Source: an uncultured Arenicella sp. (lineage in GTDB: Bacteria; Pseudomonadota; Gammaproteobacteria; Arenicellales; Arenicellaceae). From it: a stretch of 64,000 bases of DNA. Below are positions 37,918 through 42,970 of the stretch, piece after piece. The stretch lies in NCBI GenBank assembly GCA_937974565.1, contig CALJWL010000012.1, positions 1 to 64,000 on the forward strand. The letters run 5' to 3'. Position numbers and translations under genes: made by a program. Under the pieces are notes generated by a model. That model had not been told where the DNA came from and made no database searches. It worked only from the letters and a program-made list of their open reading frames with translations. Each line of letters begins with the position of its first letter. The first letter of the stretch is position 1.

Positions 37918-38634
37918 TCACAGCGATAGTTCTTTTACAAACGCTTCAGCCTCGGCTATCGAAGCTTCCATCTCTCGAATCAAGGCCGACACGTCTTGTT
38001 CAATAACCACACTTTCCTGTTTTAATGAATTCACCGCTTGTGTGTTTAAGTTGTGCTTTAGAAACAACACCTGATCCCTGAATGCGCCGAGCACGGGTTC
38101 GGTCTTTTGCTCGGCGTTACGCATCACGGCAATCAGCTGCTCGGCTTTTTTTCGTGTTTCATCAAACTGATTCTGCGCGCGCCGTTTAATACTTGCATCA
38201 TGATATTGGTTCAATTCACCGCGCCACTCATCCAACAGACGGTTCGTAGCGTTGACCACTCGATCGATTCTGTTACGCACGTTACTCGCGGCGGCTTCAC
38301 TTTGCTCGAATGCGGCATTCAACGTGTTAAATTTTTTCTCCAGATCACCACCATCAAACCCAGTAACCGATTTGAATTTCTCCAACGCTGAGCGAAATTC
38401 GTTTGCAGTTTCTTGCTGAGCCTCACTTGCAGCCTCAACACGAGTCACCAAAATGTCTCGAGGTTCTTTATAAAACGTATCGTAACTTGGGATGCCCCAA
38501 TCGGCCCCCACCCCGTTAGGGCTAAAAGTCTGATACAAAGTGAACACGACTGCGGCCATACTTAACCAGCGCTTTTTCCCGCGCAAGGCCTTGGCATTGA
38601 ACAGTAAAGGAATAAAACGAACCATGGAATTCAT
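37918..38634 (-). CDS. DUF2959 protein, paralogue 1
   Basis: A 238-residue helical protein of DUF2959. The family core is present: EPRDILVTRVEAASEAQQET, FDGGDLEKKFNTLNAAFEQS, LDEWRGELNQYHDASIKRRA, PVLGAFRDQVLFLKHNLNTQ and MEASIAEAEAFVKELS. Long coiled-coil helices are predicted over most of the length. Unlike its divergent neighbour it has no lipobox; instead there is a basic stretch (ALRGKKRWL) before one hydrophobic helix at about 24-40. Function unknown; probably envelope-associated. Confidence 0.8.
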   Translation of the reverse strand: MNSMVRFIPLLFNAKALRGKKRWLSMAAVVFTLYQTFSPNGVGADWGIPSYDTFYKEPRDILVTRVEAASEAQQETANEFRSALEKFKSVTGFDGGDLEKKFNTLNAAFEQSEAAASNVRNRIDRVVNATNRLLDEWRGELNQYHDASIKRRAQNQFDETRKKAEQLIAVMRNAEQKTEPVLGAFRDQVLFLKHNLNTQAVNSLKQESVVIEQDVSALIREMEASIAEAEAFVKELSL

Positions 38635-38740
38635 AACAATTTAAAAGAAACAATGTTGCTACAAAATTTAGCATGTTTTAACTGGAGCAAATGCGCATTT
38701 TTGTTAACATCACTCAACATCAACCACATTGAGTGTTTTC

Positions 38741-39391
38741 ATGAAACTCCTTAGCATCTTACTTCTTACTCTTTCTCTTAGCGCCTGCGGCGTCGCGCAA
38801 AAAGTTCAATACTCCGCGCTAGAGAAAGTCGGCGTACACAAACGAGACATTTTGGTCGATAGAATTGAAAAAACCAGCGAGACACAAGAGAAGACCAAAG
38901 AACAATTTCAATCGGCGTATGAGGAACTCGTAAGTTTGGTCGACGTTGACGATCAAGCACTGGAAGAAAAATATAAAAAAATGGCCAGTGCTGTCGAACG
39001 AAGCGAAGACAAGGCCCGTGAATTAGAGTCTCGTATTAAATCGGTCGATAGCGTAGCCAAAGCATTGTTTGTCGAGTGGGAAGAAGAATTGAGCCAGTAT
39101 CAAAGTCAAAACTTACGAAAAGCAAGCGAGCAAAACTTAGTGGCCACCAAACAACGTTACGCTGTAATCCACCAAAAAATGAAAGAGTCGCATCAACGAG
39201 TGGAACCCGTACTGCAGGTGCTGCAAGATAACATTTTGTTTTTAAAGCACAACCTAAACGCGCGTGCGGTTAGCAGTATATCCGGCGAGGTTTTGGTTAT
39301 TGAAGCCAAGGTTAAACAACTGATAAACGAGATGGAAGCGTCCATCGTCGAATCCAAAAAGTTTGTCGATAACATGCAAAGCACAGGTTAA
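38741..39391 (+). CDS. DUF2959 lipoprotein, paralogue 2
   Basis: A 216-residue lipoprotein: MKLLSILLLTLSLSACG with lipobox Cys16, then the DUF2959 domain (EKVGVHKRDILVDRIEKTSE, VDDQALEEKYKKMASAVERS, FVEWEEELSQYQSQNLRKAS, PVLQVLQDNILFLKHNLNAR and MEASIVESKKFVDNM). An upstream in-frame TTG at 38729 is not used here because the ATG gives a perfect lipoprotein signal. It is divergent from paralogue 1 across about 106 bp. Function unknown; helical, envelope-anchored. Confidence 0.85.
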   Translation: MKLLSILLLTLSLSACGVAQKVQYSALEKVGVHKRDILVDRIEKTSETQEKTKEQFQSAYEELVSLVDVDDQALEEKYKKMASAVERSEDKARELESRIKSVDSVAKALFVEWEEELSQYQSQNLRKASEQNLVATKQRYAVIHQKMKESHQRVEPVLQVLQDNILFLKHNLNARAVSSISGEVLVIEAKVKQLINEMEASIVESKKFVDNMQSTG

Positions 39392-39481
39392 CGCTAAGCG
39401 CTAGCTTAAACTCACAAGGTGAAACACGCAGCCATATTATTTGACCGTAATACATGGACTTCTAAAACGGTCCATCATTGC

Positions 39482-40177
39482 ATGCCAAAACAAATAACAC
39501 TGATAACAGCATTTGCCTTTGCCGCTTGGCTAAACGCCGCTGATGCCGCCACAGTTCAATCGAGCGTTCATGTGGAATCAGCCCGCTTTGTCGACGGCAG
39601 CAATATTACCGGTGATCGCCCGGCCGTTTCCCTTACCACAGACGTTAGTTTTAACAATGGCGCGTTCATTGGTCTTGAATGCTATGCTGCGGATGTGCAA
39701 AAAAATAGAGGCTTAAAGTCTGGTTGTGATGTTTATGCTGGGTACTTTCAGGCTTTAAAGAATAAACAAGCGCTCACGCTTACAGCAACCCGCCATCACT
39801 ATTCTCGAGGTTTTAATCGAGAATGGGACTACACCAGTTTAGAAGCGACTTGGCATGCCAGCAAGAACTCTTCGCTTTCAATCGCTTATGCTAATGACTG
39901 GTTTGACCGCCCTTTTGACACCATCGCACTCAAGCACAAATCGCGATTTAAATTGTCTAACGCTCTAACACTGAATCTCACAGCCAGCGCCACGGTGGTG
40001 GAAAACGGTGCGCCCACCGATTTAATTCACTTTGCCAAGCTTTCTCTAGAATACAGCACAGAGCGCTGGACCATAGAGCCCGCAATCAACGTGAGCGACA
40101 GTGATCTGACCGATATGTTTGCTTTTGATATTGATCAGCCCGATATATCACTGACAATAAGTTATCGCCTTTACTAG
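39482..40177 (+). CDS. Predicted outer-membrane beta-strand protein
   Basis: A protein of about 231 residues with a signal peptide (MPKQITLITAFAFAAWLNAADA, cleaved near residue 22) and then alternating hydrophobic/polar segments typical of a beta-barrel, ending in LTISYRLY with a terminal aromatic residue. It resembles the short proteobacterial outer-membrane proteins of the TIGR02001 type, but I am not sure of the family. An in-frame GTG at 39419 would add 21 residues ahead of the signal peptide and is less likely. It converges on the subtilase gene with a 13-bp gap. Confidence 0.6.
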   Translation: MPKQITLITAFAFAAWLNAADAATVQSSVHVESARFVDGSNITGDRPAVSLTTDVSFNNGAFIGLECYAADVQKNRGLKSGCDVYAGYFQALKNKQALTLTATRHHYSRGFNREWDYTSLEATWHASKNSSLSIAYANDWFDRPFDTIALKHKSRFKLSNALTLNLTASATVVENGAPTDLIHFAKLSLEYSTERWTIEPAINVSDSDLTDMFAFDIDQPDISLTISYRLY

Positions 40178-40190
40178 AGACTTAAGCCGA

Positions 40191-41468
40191 CTAAGTGCCA
40201 TTAGTCAGCTCGTCTAACAACTCATCCGCCGCTGACGCATTGGCTAAGTTTCGCCAGTCATGATGTCGAGCCTGTTGTTTTTCGCCCCACGCTTGTTTTC
40301 GAAGAGCCAACACACCACTGGTGTATGCCGAGGCCACGGAGTGCCCATGCATATAGTCGTATTGATTGCCAGGCTTTGCCACAACGCGCTCACCTGGCGC
40401 TGTGAAAACGTCTGAATAACGATCATCCAGCCCTTGCGCGCGCACAATTAGTACGCCGTCACGTGGCGTGGGAAAGCGTGTACGCATTGACCTTTGAGGG
40501 TCGAAGGCTGCCACCACAATGGCACCACGCCGCACAATTCGTTCAATTAAACGGTCAAGTAACTCATCTTGCGGCCCAGACAAACTTAGGTTCAAAATAT
40601 CGGCCCCACTCTTTGCCACCGCATCCAACGCTCTGGCCAAAGACAAGGTATTACAGCGCGTTAAATTTGAATCTGCATGCTCCCAGCACCCTCGGTAAGA
40701 CTCTAAGGTGATCGCGGGTGAAACGCCAACCACACCAAGTTCAGTGCCCGCTTGTGAGATCATTACTCCTGCGATGGCGGTGCCATGACTTTCACCGCTT
40801 GTATCACTGACACCTCTAATTCCAGAAACAAAATCAACGCTCTTATTTCTGGCACCAGCAAAGTCTCGATGTGAGCCGTCCACGGCTGAATCAATGATGG
40901 CAACAATCACCCCAGCCCCGTCTGCCGATACATTGGCGTTTAGTTCGCTTGTATTCGGCGACCTTCTGTCTAATTCGTTGCGTTGAGTGTCTTTAGCTGA
41001 CGAAAGTAAACGAAACTCGTTAGACCGCTGTACCCATTGCACGCGTTTATTGCTTTTCAGAGCTGCCACCGTCTGTTTGGCATCGCCGTTAAAACGCACC
41101 ACTAAGCAGTACACCGATAAGCTTTCGATAAACCACTGGTCGCGCAAATCTAAGTTATATCGATTGGCCTGTTTCTTACTAAATCGTTTTAATTCCAATG
41201 AAGCGCGGTACCCGCCTCCGTTTTTACTGTAACCTGACGCCAGCCAATCTTGTAACCGCGCAGGCCTTGGGTCGTCAAAGACCACGACCCATTCGTCTTC
41301 AGACTGGTCTTGTAAATCATCACTCGAAACTTCGATCAATGGATTTAAGGCAAGGTCACTGAGTTCACCGTTGGCGTTTTCAACCTCGGCTGAGTGATGT
41401 CGGGTCTGAGCGTTAACACTAATGAACATGCAGCAGCCAACCACAACAATGAGGACGCGACGAATCAT
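40191..41468 (-). CDS. Subtilisin-like (S8) serine protease with pro-region
   Basis: A 425-residue exported protease. Signal peptide 1-20 (ending ISVNA), a pro-region at about 57-155, then the S8 domain with Asp193 (VAIIDSAVDGSH), His228 (ESHGTAIAGVM) and Ser377 (HGHSVASAYTSGV). The oxyanion-hole Asn expected in an AAGN-type motif appears as Asp323 in VVAAFDPQ, an uncommon substitution that may lower or alter activity. It is the third gene of an operon with an ECF sigma factor and an anti-sigma factor (gap 86 bp). The part of the pro-region before the catalytic domain (YCLVVRF ... KQTVAALKSNKRVQWV) is similar to the periplasmic end of the anti-sigma factor. Target unknown. Confidence 0.82.
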   Translation of the reverse strand: MIRRVLIVVVGCCMFISVNAQTRHHSAEVENANGELSDLALNPLIEVSSDDLQDQSEDEWVVVFDDPRPARLQDWLASGYSKNGGGYRASLELKRFSKKQANRYNLDLRDQWFIESLSVYCLVVRFNGDAKQTVAALKSNKRVQWVQRSNEFRLLSSAKDTQRNELDRRSPNTSELNANVSADGAGVIVAIIDSAVDGSHRDFAGARNKSVDFVSGIRGVSDTSGESHGTAIAGVMISQAGTELGVVGVSPAITLESYRGCWEHADSNLTRCNTLSLARALDAVAKSGADILNLSLSGPQDELLDRLIERIVRRGAIVVAAFDPQRSMRTRFPTPRDGVLIVRAQGLDDRYSDVFTAPGERVVAKPGNQYDYMHGHSVASAYTSGVLALRKQAWGEKQQARHHDWRNLANASAADELLDELTNGT

Positions 41469-41554: not shown

Positions 41555-42304
41555 TTATTCCGAGGTCGTGAATAATGTCACTTCTTTCACTCGGCTGTCA
41601 GCTCGCCACGCCAACGTCTGAGAAGATGATATCTTGGCAGTCGAATACACATACAACTCACCGTTTTTAGCACCAGACTCAAACGTGGATAATCCGTAGG
41701 CAACCAGCATATTACTTACTTCTTCCGCTGATAAGTCTCGGGATACGGTGAATTTTGCCAACCGGCCTTGTTCAACTAAAGTACCAAAATCCACTTTTTG
41801 TGATGCCGCTCCGTCAGACAAAGTGGTGAAATTAGGCTGAACCGAATCAACGTAGTTGTTAACGAATAACAGCGCAACAAACGCAAGTGATGCGGCAGCG
41901 GCCATAGGGCCCACAAGTGAGCGGTTTACCAAGCGAGACATAAAGTCAATGGGAGTCTTGCGGCTCAACGGCGTCTCTGTTTGACTGATTAAAGGCTTTG
42001 AAAGAGCCTCAGTTTGATCAACCTCGTCTGTTTCTTGCGTCTCGCTCTCCAACCTATCGTCTTGCGCCATATCTATACGCGCAAAAAGATCATCAATATT
42101 AGACATCGATATGGCCGCATCTGTTCCGGCCTCGGCCATTTGGGCGCGCAATTTTCGTTCGGCCTGAACGTCAGCCGCTAACCCAGAATCATTGCCCATT
42201 ATGCGCTCAAAGTTACGTTTAGCAGACGGCGTTTGATCGCCTGACACGTAGTCAAAGATTGCCAATTCTCTCAACATTTCAGATTTCTCATTAGAAGAAT
42301 TCAT
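41555..42304 (-). CDS. Membrane-spanning anti-sigma factor
   Basis: A protein of about 249 residues from the chosen ATG (an in-frame codon at 42352 would add 16 residues). The N-terminal part (1-80) is helical, reads LRELAIFDYVSGDQTPSAKR and ERKLRAQMAE, and resembles anti-sigma domains but has no HxxxCxxC zinc motif. One membrane helix lies at about 132-150 (VGPMAAAASLAFVALLFVNN). The periplasmic part (about 180-249) has an alternating strand/helix pattern: RLAKFTVSRD, SAEEVSNMLVAYG, GELYVYST and SSSQTLAWRADSRVKEV. It lies 90 bp downstream of the ECF sigma gene and 86 bp upstream of the subtilase, so it should hold the sigma factor at the membrane. Confidence 0.8.
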   Translation of the reverse strand: MNSSNEKSEMLRELAIFDYVSGDQTPSAKRNFERIMGNDSGLAADVQAERKLRAQMAEAGTDAAISMSNIDDLFARIDMAQDDRLESETQETDEVDQTEALSKPLISQTETPLSRKTPIDFMSRLVNRSLVGPMAAAASLAFVALLFVNNYVDSVQPNFTTLSDGAASQKVDFGTLVEQGRLAKFTVSRDLSAEEVSNMLVAYGLSTFESGAKNGELYVYSTAKISSSQTLAWRADSRVKEVTLFTTSE

Positions 42305-42394
42305 TACATTACCCCAACCGGTTTTACTCTTAATTTGTATGCCACCAGCCAATCGACCCTAACTCTATTAAAACCTATGCTCACTGTTGCAAAA

Positions 42395-42970
42395 TTAGTG
42401 TTCGTCATCTTTATCGACCATCGTTTTTAACTTTTGCCTTGCGTGGAACAATCTTGTCTTCACGGTATTAAGCGGCAACTTTAATATTTGCGAAATCTCT
42501 TCAAGGCTGTGCCCGTCAAAATAGGCAAGCTCTATTACATCACGGTGAAGTTCTTTTAATTGAGCCATGGCACGCTTAATCTGATCCAAACGGTCTTCTT
42601 GCAATGCATTTTCCTGCTCAACTTTCTCCGGCAATGAATCGAAATCAATATCACTGCTGTCTTTAGTGTGTTTTTGCTCTTTCCGTACGTGCGTTAAGCA
42701 AACGCGATAAGCGATACCATAAATCCAAGATGAAACCTTTGCATCCGCACGAAAGGAACCCGCTTTCTGCCAAACAGCAAACATCACATCGTTGTATATC
42801 TCATCCACCAATTTAGGCTCGAACACTCTACGACGTATATAGCTGCCAATGTTGTGTCGGTAACGCGCGTAAATTTCAGTGAGCGCATCTCGGTCTTGAT
42901 GCCCGGCAATTAAGTCAATCAATTGCTGGTCTTCAAGTTCGGTTAATTTATTTGACGCTTTCAATTTCAT
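42395..42970 (-). CDS. ECF-type RNA polymerase sigma factor
   Basis: A 191-residue sigma-70-family factor with only regions 2 and 4. Region 2 (about 25-95) includes YARYRHNIGSYIRRRVFEPK, DEIYNDVMFAVWQKAGSFRA and VSSWIYGIAYRVCLTHVRKE. Region 4 (about 128-180) includes LKELHRDVIELAYFDGHSLE and ISQILKLPLNTVKTRLFHAR. It leads an operon with an anti-sigma factor and a protease and is divergent from an outer-membrane gene. An inverted repeat with outward-facing TGAACCTTTT in the gap may be the recognition element. Confidence 0.92.
   Translation of the reverse strand: MKLKASNKLTELEDQQLIDLIAGHQDRDALTEIYARYRHNIGSYIRRRVFEPKLVDEIYNDVMFAVWQKAGSFRADAKVSSWIYGIAYRVCLTHVRKEQKHTKDSSDIDFDSLPEKVEQENALQEDRLDQIKRAMAQLKELHRDVIELAYFDGHSLEEISQILKLPLNTVKTRLFHARQKLKTMVDKDDEH

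Follow-up and report, generated by a model that had tools for sequence, protein, structure and literature searches.

The stretch of DNA analysed here (the window, 64,000 nucleotides of Arenicella, Gammaproteobacteria) carries three consecutive genes on the minus strand, as are all the features within them described below, and these encode, in order, an ECF sigma factor, a single-span anti-sigma factor and an exported subtilase. The sigma factor gene (42395-42970) specifies 191 amino acids that match Sigma70_r2 (PF04542, E 5.9e-10), Sigma70_r4_2 (PF08281, E 6.3e-15) and the NCBIfam model sigma70-ECF (E 3.1e-23). The anti-sigma factor gene (41555-42304) encodes 249 amino acids from its ATG, or 265 if an upstream TTG serves as the start, and its assignment is based on its position after the sigma gene, on one hydrophobic span and on the anti-sigma model matches of its relatives. 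The third gene (40191-41468) encodes a peptidase S8 of 425 amino acids with a PF00082 match (E 9.5e-17) and a hydrophobic N-terminal signal. Because the intergenic gaps, taken from the coordinates, measure 90 bases (sigma/anti-sigma) and 86 bases (anti-sigma/subtilase), the three genes likely form a single operon. The original prediction of such an operon was correct as to genes, strand and order; the interval that it gave, 41555-42970, covers the sigma and anti-sigma genes but omits the subtilase. Among named records of the public collection, the closest relatives belong to Arenicella, and the sigma/anti-sigma operon is found in the window and in 10 relatives within the genus.

Just past the subtilase gene, at 39419-40177 on the plus strand, lies a gene for a small outer-membrane-type protein with a weak match to the Gcw_chp family (PF09694). 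A Gcw_chp protein (PF09694, E 6e-9) also lies just past the subtilase in Sphingorhabdus (L052, 4929-5825), proteins that resemble the Gcw_chp one by eye occupy that place in L196 (4264-4983) and L200 (4844-5587), and the protein may belong to the sigma/anti-sigma/subtilase system. Upstream of the sigma gene and divergent from it, an outer-membrane beta-barrel gene (PF13505; 43285-44010, plus strand) recurs in that position in several Arenicella genomes and may be one of the sigma factor's targets. A divergent pair of genes (37918-38634, minus strand; 38729-39391, plus strand) appear similar to each other on inspection, and the plus-strand member belongs to DUF2959 (E 6e-67). PADLOC gave no sign of a defence system, its sole match being a general subtilase model.

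No Pfam or NCBIfam model recognizes the window's own anti-sigma protein; among its relatives there are matches to anti-sigma models, and many of these relatives carry zf-HC2. The Kyte-Doolittle profile of the window protein has one maximum (2.28, residues 130-148, 41861-41917) and no second segment above 1.6, in agreement with the single span originally proposed. The protein thus has the adjoining ECF sigma gene, the cytoplasmic anti-sigma part and the one span that define the membrane-bound ECF anti-sigma class, and, judging from its family, it would bind and inhibit the sigma factor.

The subtilase is predicted by AlphaFold2 to possess a pro-domain of its own (residues 59-153, 41010-41294), consisting of strands at residues 59-65, 106-114, 119-126 and 143-148 and helices at 91-103 and 130-138; residues 99-147 match PF22148 weakly (E 0.19). 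Uncleaved pro-subtilisin E is the top PDB match of the subtilase model (E 1.4e-17), and the complex 1v5i of the inhibitor POIA1 is another of the model's matches. The catalytic residues are Asp193, His228 and Ser377, which together with Asp323 at the oxyanion position span 40338-40892. The Asp-His-Ser triad is invariant in 26 of 26 aligned subtilases and, along with the S8 domain, places the protein in peptidase family S8. The Asn of the subtilisin oxyanion hole is absent from all Arenicella members, which have Asp323 (window 40500-40502) instead; in most aligned relatives the position is Asp, Pro, Gly or Thr. Counted by alignment column, only 3 of 26 have Asn there, to which inspection by eye adds L093, and the alphaproteobacterial-type subtilases retain the usual AAAGN motif with the oxyanion Asn. 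The replacement, as read from the aligned residues, would leave S8 membership standing but questions whether activity is normal. Several of the relatives' subtilases have a lipobox, making them predicted lipoproteins, which would be consistent with a location at the membrane.

The predicted fold of the periplasmic domain

The original prediction set out from a short match between the periplasmic end of the anti-sigma factor (residues 226-242, 41579-41629) and the pro-region of the subtilase (residues 129-146, 41031-41084). Both segments lie at the residues given for them, but they are 17 and 18 residues long, respectively, so that their alignment requires one gap. At the level of letters, the 17-residue resemblance is that expected by chance (local alignment score 24.0 versus a shuffled mean of 24.2, p = 0.49), the best Smith-Waterman local alignment of the two regions misses the proposed register, and BLASTP reports no match between the anti-sigma periplasmic end and the subtilase pro-region. 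Because the pairwise match is at chance level, the letters alone gave no justification for the claim, and with BLASTP and shuffle-controlled Smith-Waterman both giving no signal, the letter match was dropped as evidence.

The structural setting of the two segments fared better. With 50 sequences as input, AlphaFold2 predicts a strand-helix-strand-strand-helix-strand unit for anti-sigma residues 182-244 (41573-41761), with a mean pLDDT of 83.2 that rises to about 90 or more over most of the core, and the order of elements is that of subtilase residues 59-148. In both models the quoted segment corresponds to the final helix and strand of the unit (helix 227-235 and strand 239-244 in the anti-sigma periplasmic domain; helix 130-138 and strand 143-148 in the subtilase pro-domain), bearing out the shared strand-helix-strand setting that had been proposed. 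Among the 50 PDB matches listed by Foldseek for the anti-sigma domain, subtilisin pro-peptides and pro-subtilisin rank first by probability (0.97-0.99) and show the smallest rmsd (from 2.1), with no E-value below 0.001 in the search; RRM domains rank first by E-value, and other ferredoxin-like folds match as well, the fold being a common one. The predicted folds of the anti-sigma domain and the pro-domain accordingly agree, as judged by matches to solved pro-peptides and by equal element order. Searches of PDB sequences, by phmmer with the anti-sigma factor and by a profile of the domain, returned no pro-peptide; the best match there, AcaB (E 0.016), was judged to be chance.

The end of the domain is also reminiscent of a pro-peptide. 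A pro-peptide ends at its cleavage site, and the anti-sigma domain likewise ends the protein shortly past its last strand: most anti-sigma relatives terminate 3-10 residues beyond that strand, and in the window protein the tail comprises residues 245-249 (41558-41572), which might enter an active site as a pro-peptide tail does. The C-terminal consensus of many relatives reads V.F.P.A....I..LL....A.IVDGP...G.Y.L.........L..L.....V.

Profiles detect the relationship that pairwise comparison misses. The distant anti-sigma relative L034 matches PF22148 (Fervidolysin_NPro-like) in its C-terminal end (E 2.4e-5, 25.1 bits, cut-off 21), a second distant relative, L055, falls just under the cut-off (E 0.0011, 19.8 bits), and 10 of 59 anti-sigma sequences match the model at E up to 0.1; the window anti-sigma protein itself has no PF22148 match. 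When families are compared by hhalign, the Arenicella anti-sigma domain scores 92% (E 5.5e-7) against other anti-sigma domains, which ties the window protein to the relatives that match PF22148, and those other domains score 69% against subtilase pro-regions. The Arenicella domain scores 18% against those pro-regions and, weakly, 3.5% against the cognate Arenicella pro-regions, the latter in the register originally proposed. With the anti-sigma domains pooled and the pro-regions pooled, the comparison gives 86% (E 4.7e-6) over 69 collinear columns, from the first strand to the last, and profile-profile alignment of both families places the two quoted segments in that same register. The observed score was reached by none of 200 column shuffles in each of three pairings with pro-regions, and by 4 of 200 for the Arenicella-only pair. 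Reversed pro-region profiles score low, as do ACT domains, which have the same strand-helix order and are unrelated. An individual reversed score is noisy, though, since the profile of the anti-sigma domains from outside Arenicella, when reversed, still reached 41% against its own family. The similarity between the pooled profiles therefore exceeds chance as measured against the shuffled, reversed and ACT controls.

These results bear on the alternative that the resemblance is a short letter match and nothing more. The chance level of the pairwise comparison speaks for that explanation, yet the controlled profile comparison, the PF22148 matches of relatives and the predicted fold all stand against it; on the profile and fold evidence it was rejected and is very improbable. 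Profiles and models together indicate that the anti-sigma periplasmic domain very probably has the fold of a subtilase pro-domain. Since every subtilase whose pro-region was read carries such a region ahead of its catalytic domain, the anti-sigma domain is an additional, second copy and not a displaced pro-domain. Thus the structural half of the original idea holds, on grounds other than those given for it; the functional half, that the protease acts on the anti-sigma factor through this domain, is plausible and draws its motivation from genomic linkage.

Linkage of the domain to subtilase genes

Searching outward with anti-sigma profiles, and not with the protease, recovered similar anti-sigma factors in other Gammaproteobacteria and in other classes of the phylum; one search that started from the protease found the three genes arranged in the same way in Sphingomonadaceae and Burkholderiaceae. 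The set used to measure linkage consists of 45 loci found by anti-sigma profiles, from which Arenicella, protease-found loci and three loci at contig ends were excluded. A subtilase gene lies within about 1.5 kb of the domain-bearing anti-sigma gene in 42 of the 45 (28 genera, 23 families), versus none of 20 ECF or zinc-finger loci that lack the domain, read for as much as about 5 kb in both directions; the longer distance was used for the zinc-finger (zf-HC2) control loci because flanks of 1.5 kb are too short to exclude a subtilase. The corresponding Fisher p values (6e-14 for loci, about 3e-11 for genera) are guides only, since the loci have a shared descent and the genera in the negative set were counted approximately. 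Linkage between domain and subtilase extends over Gammaproteobacteria and further Pseudomonadota and covers no fewer than 28 genera. Within Arenicella, the anti-sigma factor is present in 11 of 17 other genomes, and the subtilase accompanies it in 11 of the 12 genomes that have it (the window's included) and occurs in 0 of 6 that do not (Fisher p 4e-4, uncorrected for shared descent).

Linkage of this kind could reflect co-regulation rather than contact. One explanation of that sort holds that the domain shares ancestry with the pro-domain, either by derivation from it or as a related ferredoxin-like sensor, and that it now binds another ligand or dimerizes; the protease would simply belong to the regulon, its gene staying close for the sake of co-expression. 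ECF operons often include their target genes, and the loci at which domain and protease part company agree with this account: in L074 and L077 the domain-bearing anti-sigma gene lies between housekeeping genes with no protease nearby, in L078 (the same locus as L124) a caspase-like peptidase replaces the subtilase after it, and the Arenicella genome G015, in which no close subtilase relative occurs anywhere in the assembly, retains the domain. Against it, linkage to subtilases is confined to anti-sigma factors with the domain (42 of 45 versus 0 of 20), a restriction that co-expression alone would not predict, and the linkage persists though gene order varies, with the subtilase on the opposite side of the sigma gene in L106 and L113 and the anti-sigma gene reversed in L095. 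Shared ancestry without contact is, on this evidence, unlikely.

Several of these loci can be described further. In G015 (L026, 3358-6315) both the sigma and the anti-sigma gene are kept, the anti-sigma factor with its C-terminal domain. The caspase-like peptidase of L124 (4461-6478; PF00656, E 3e-37) has Sel1 repeats and follows the domain-bearing anti-sigma gene. Sigma and domain-bearing anti-sigma genes without a protease nearby occur in L122 (5050-6345) and L123 (4870-6144), from two genera of one family, where the flanking housekeeping genes look like dnaJ, dapB and carA/carB.

Proposed protease docking and sigma release

Because a subtilase is almost always encoded beside the domain-bearing anti-sigma factor, the protease may be part of the switch. 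On balance it is somewhat probable that the mature subtilase docks on the anti-sigma module and thereby controls release of the sigma factor, the binding, a site-1 cleavage and the direction of control all being proposals. The computed support comprises the predicted fold, the remote profile similarity, the register and the genomic linkage.

In the sequence of events envisaged, a further module resembling a subtilase pro-domain would project from the anti-sigma factor into the periplasm, and the co-encoded subtilase would be exported with its own pro-domain and then mature. The mature enzyme would dock on the module by the same surface to which its pro-domain ordinarily binds, making a single sensing unit of the membrane anti-sigma factor and the periplasmic protease. 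Pro-peptides are bound tightly by their proteases and degraded slowly, so on general reasoning regulated intramembrane proteolysis would naturally begin with a cut in the anti-sigma domain. Free, active protease would make this first cut, leading to release of the ECF sigma factor, and where the protease is occupied or inhibited the anti-sigma factor would stay intact. A bolder version would be a widespread type of ECF system whose anti-sigma factor, anchored in the membrane, temporarily inhibits a dedicated subtilase in the manner of a pro-peptide, and in which free periplasmic subtilase activity is what is measured: occupied protease would leave the anti-sigma factor intact, and free protease would bind it, cut it slowly and fire the sigma factor. 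A probability of roughly 0.4 is attached to this bolder version.

The same fold, profile and linkage evidence agrees with a stable complex in which the protease, bound as to a pro-domain, is mainly inhibited and held at the membrane. Such a complex would protect the anti-sigma factor, and loss of the protease or its capture by substrate would expose the anti-sigma factor to another site-1 protease and release sigma. Replacement of the oxyanion Asn with retention of the triad, in Arenicella and several relatives, may mean that catalysis is slow and binding is retained, which would favour this arrangement. Relatives in other groups retain the canonical oxyanion Asn, so sluggishness of the protease is not general, and a co-repressor or tether role of this kind is considered rather doubtful.

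The preferred reading, of a protease that docks on the module and cuts it, can be set beside several known systems. Stand-alone pro-peptide-like inhibitors of subtilisins exist, for example POIA1. The anti-sigma module resembles these inhibitors and the subtilase pro-domains (PF22148; subtilisin pro-peptides) in its predicted element order, in its collinear remote profile similarity, in ending soon after the last strand and in having a subtilase partner encoded nearby. It differs in standing at the end of a membrane anti-sigma factor and not at the front of a protease, as a putative inhibitor, and in that the protease also retains its own pro-domain. Similarly, the protein is like anti-sigma factors of the RseA or zf-HC2 type in having the sigma gene first, a cytoplasmic N-terminal part, a single span and a periplasmic C-terminal part, and unlike them in its pro-domain-like periplasmic module and in the dedicated subtilase of the operon; the DegS/RseP scheme operates without such a dedicated operon subtilase. 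Cleavage of anti-sigma factors by site-1 and site-2 proteases is itself established. An anti-sigma factor with a subtilase pro-domain-like end was not found described in the open-access literature searched.

Two further described systems are comparable. The anti-sigma factor RsiV is a lysozyme receptor, and in the account given in PMC5014341 an enzyme likewise triggers anti-sigma loss as a ligand of the extracytoplasmic domain, the role proposed here for the subtilase. Unlike the enzyme of that account, the one considered here is a subtilase that the cell itself makes from a neighbouring gene, and the putative binding module is similar to the pro-domain of that very protease. The ECF54 sigma factors have a subtilase gene in their neighbourhood and no anti-sigma factor, and the control proposed for them is proteolysis of the sigma factor itself (PMC8999054). 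They share with the present system an ECF sigma factor with a nearby subtilase gene and a proposal of proteolytic control (PMC8999054), but an anti-sigma gene is present here, which sets the operon apart from ECF54 in this respect.

If the preferred reading is true, a transcription switch has taken over the inhibitor fold of a protease as its sensor, and the state of the protease would be read directly as gene expression. It would explain why at least 28 genera of Pseudomonadota have an operon of sigma factor, anti-sigma factor and subtilase. For many anti-sigma factors that still lack a signal it would suggest a ligand open to testing, and it would also provide a modular reporter of protease activity.
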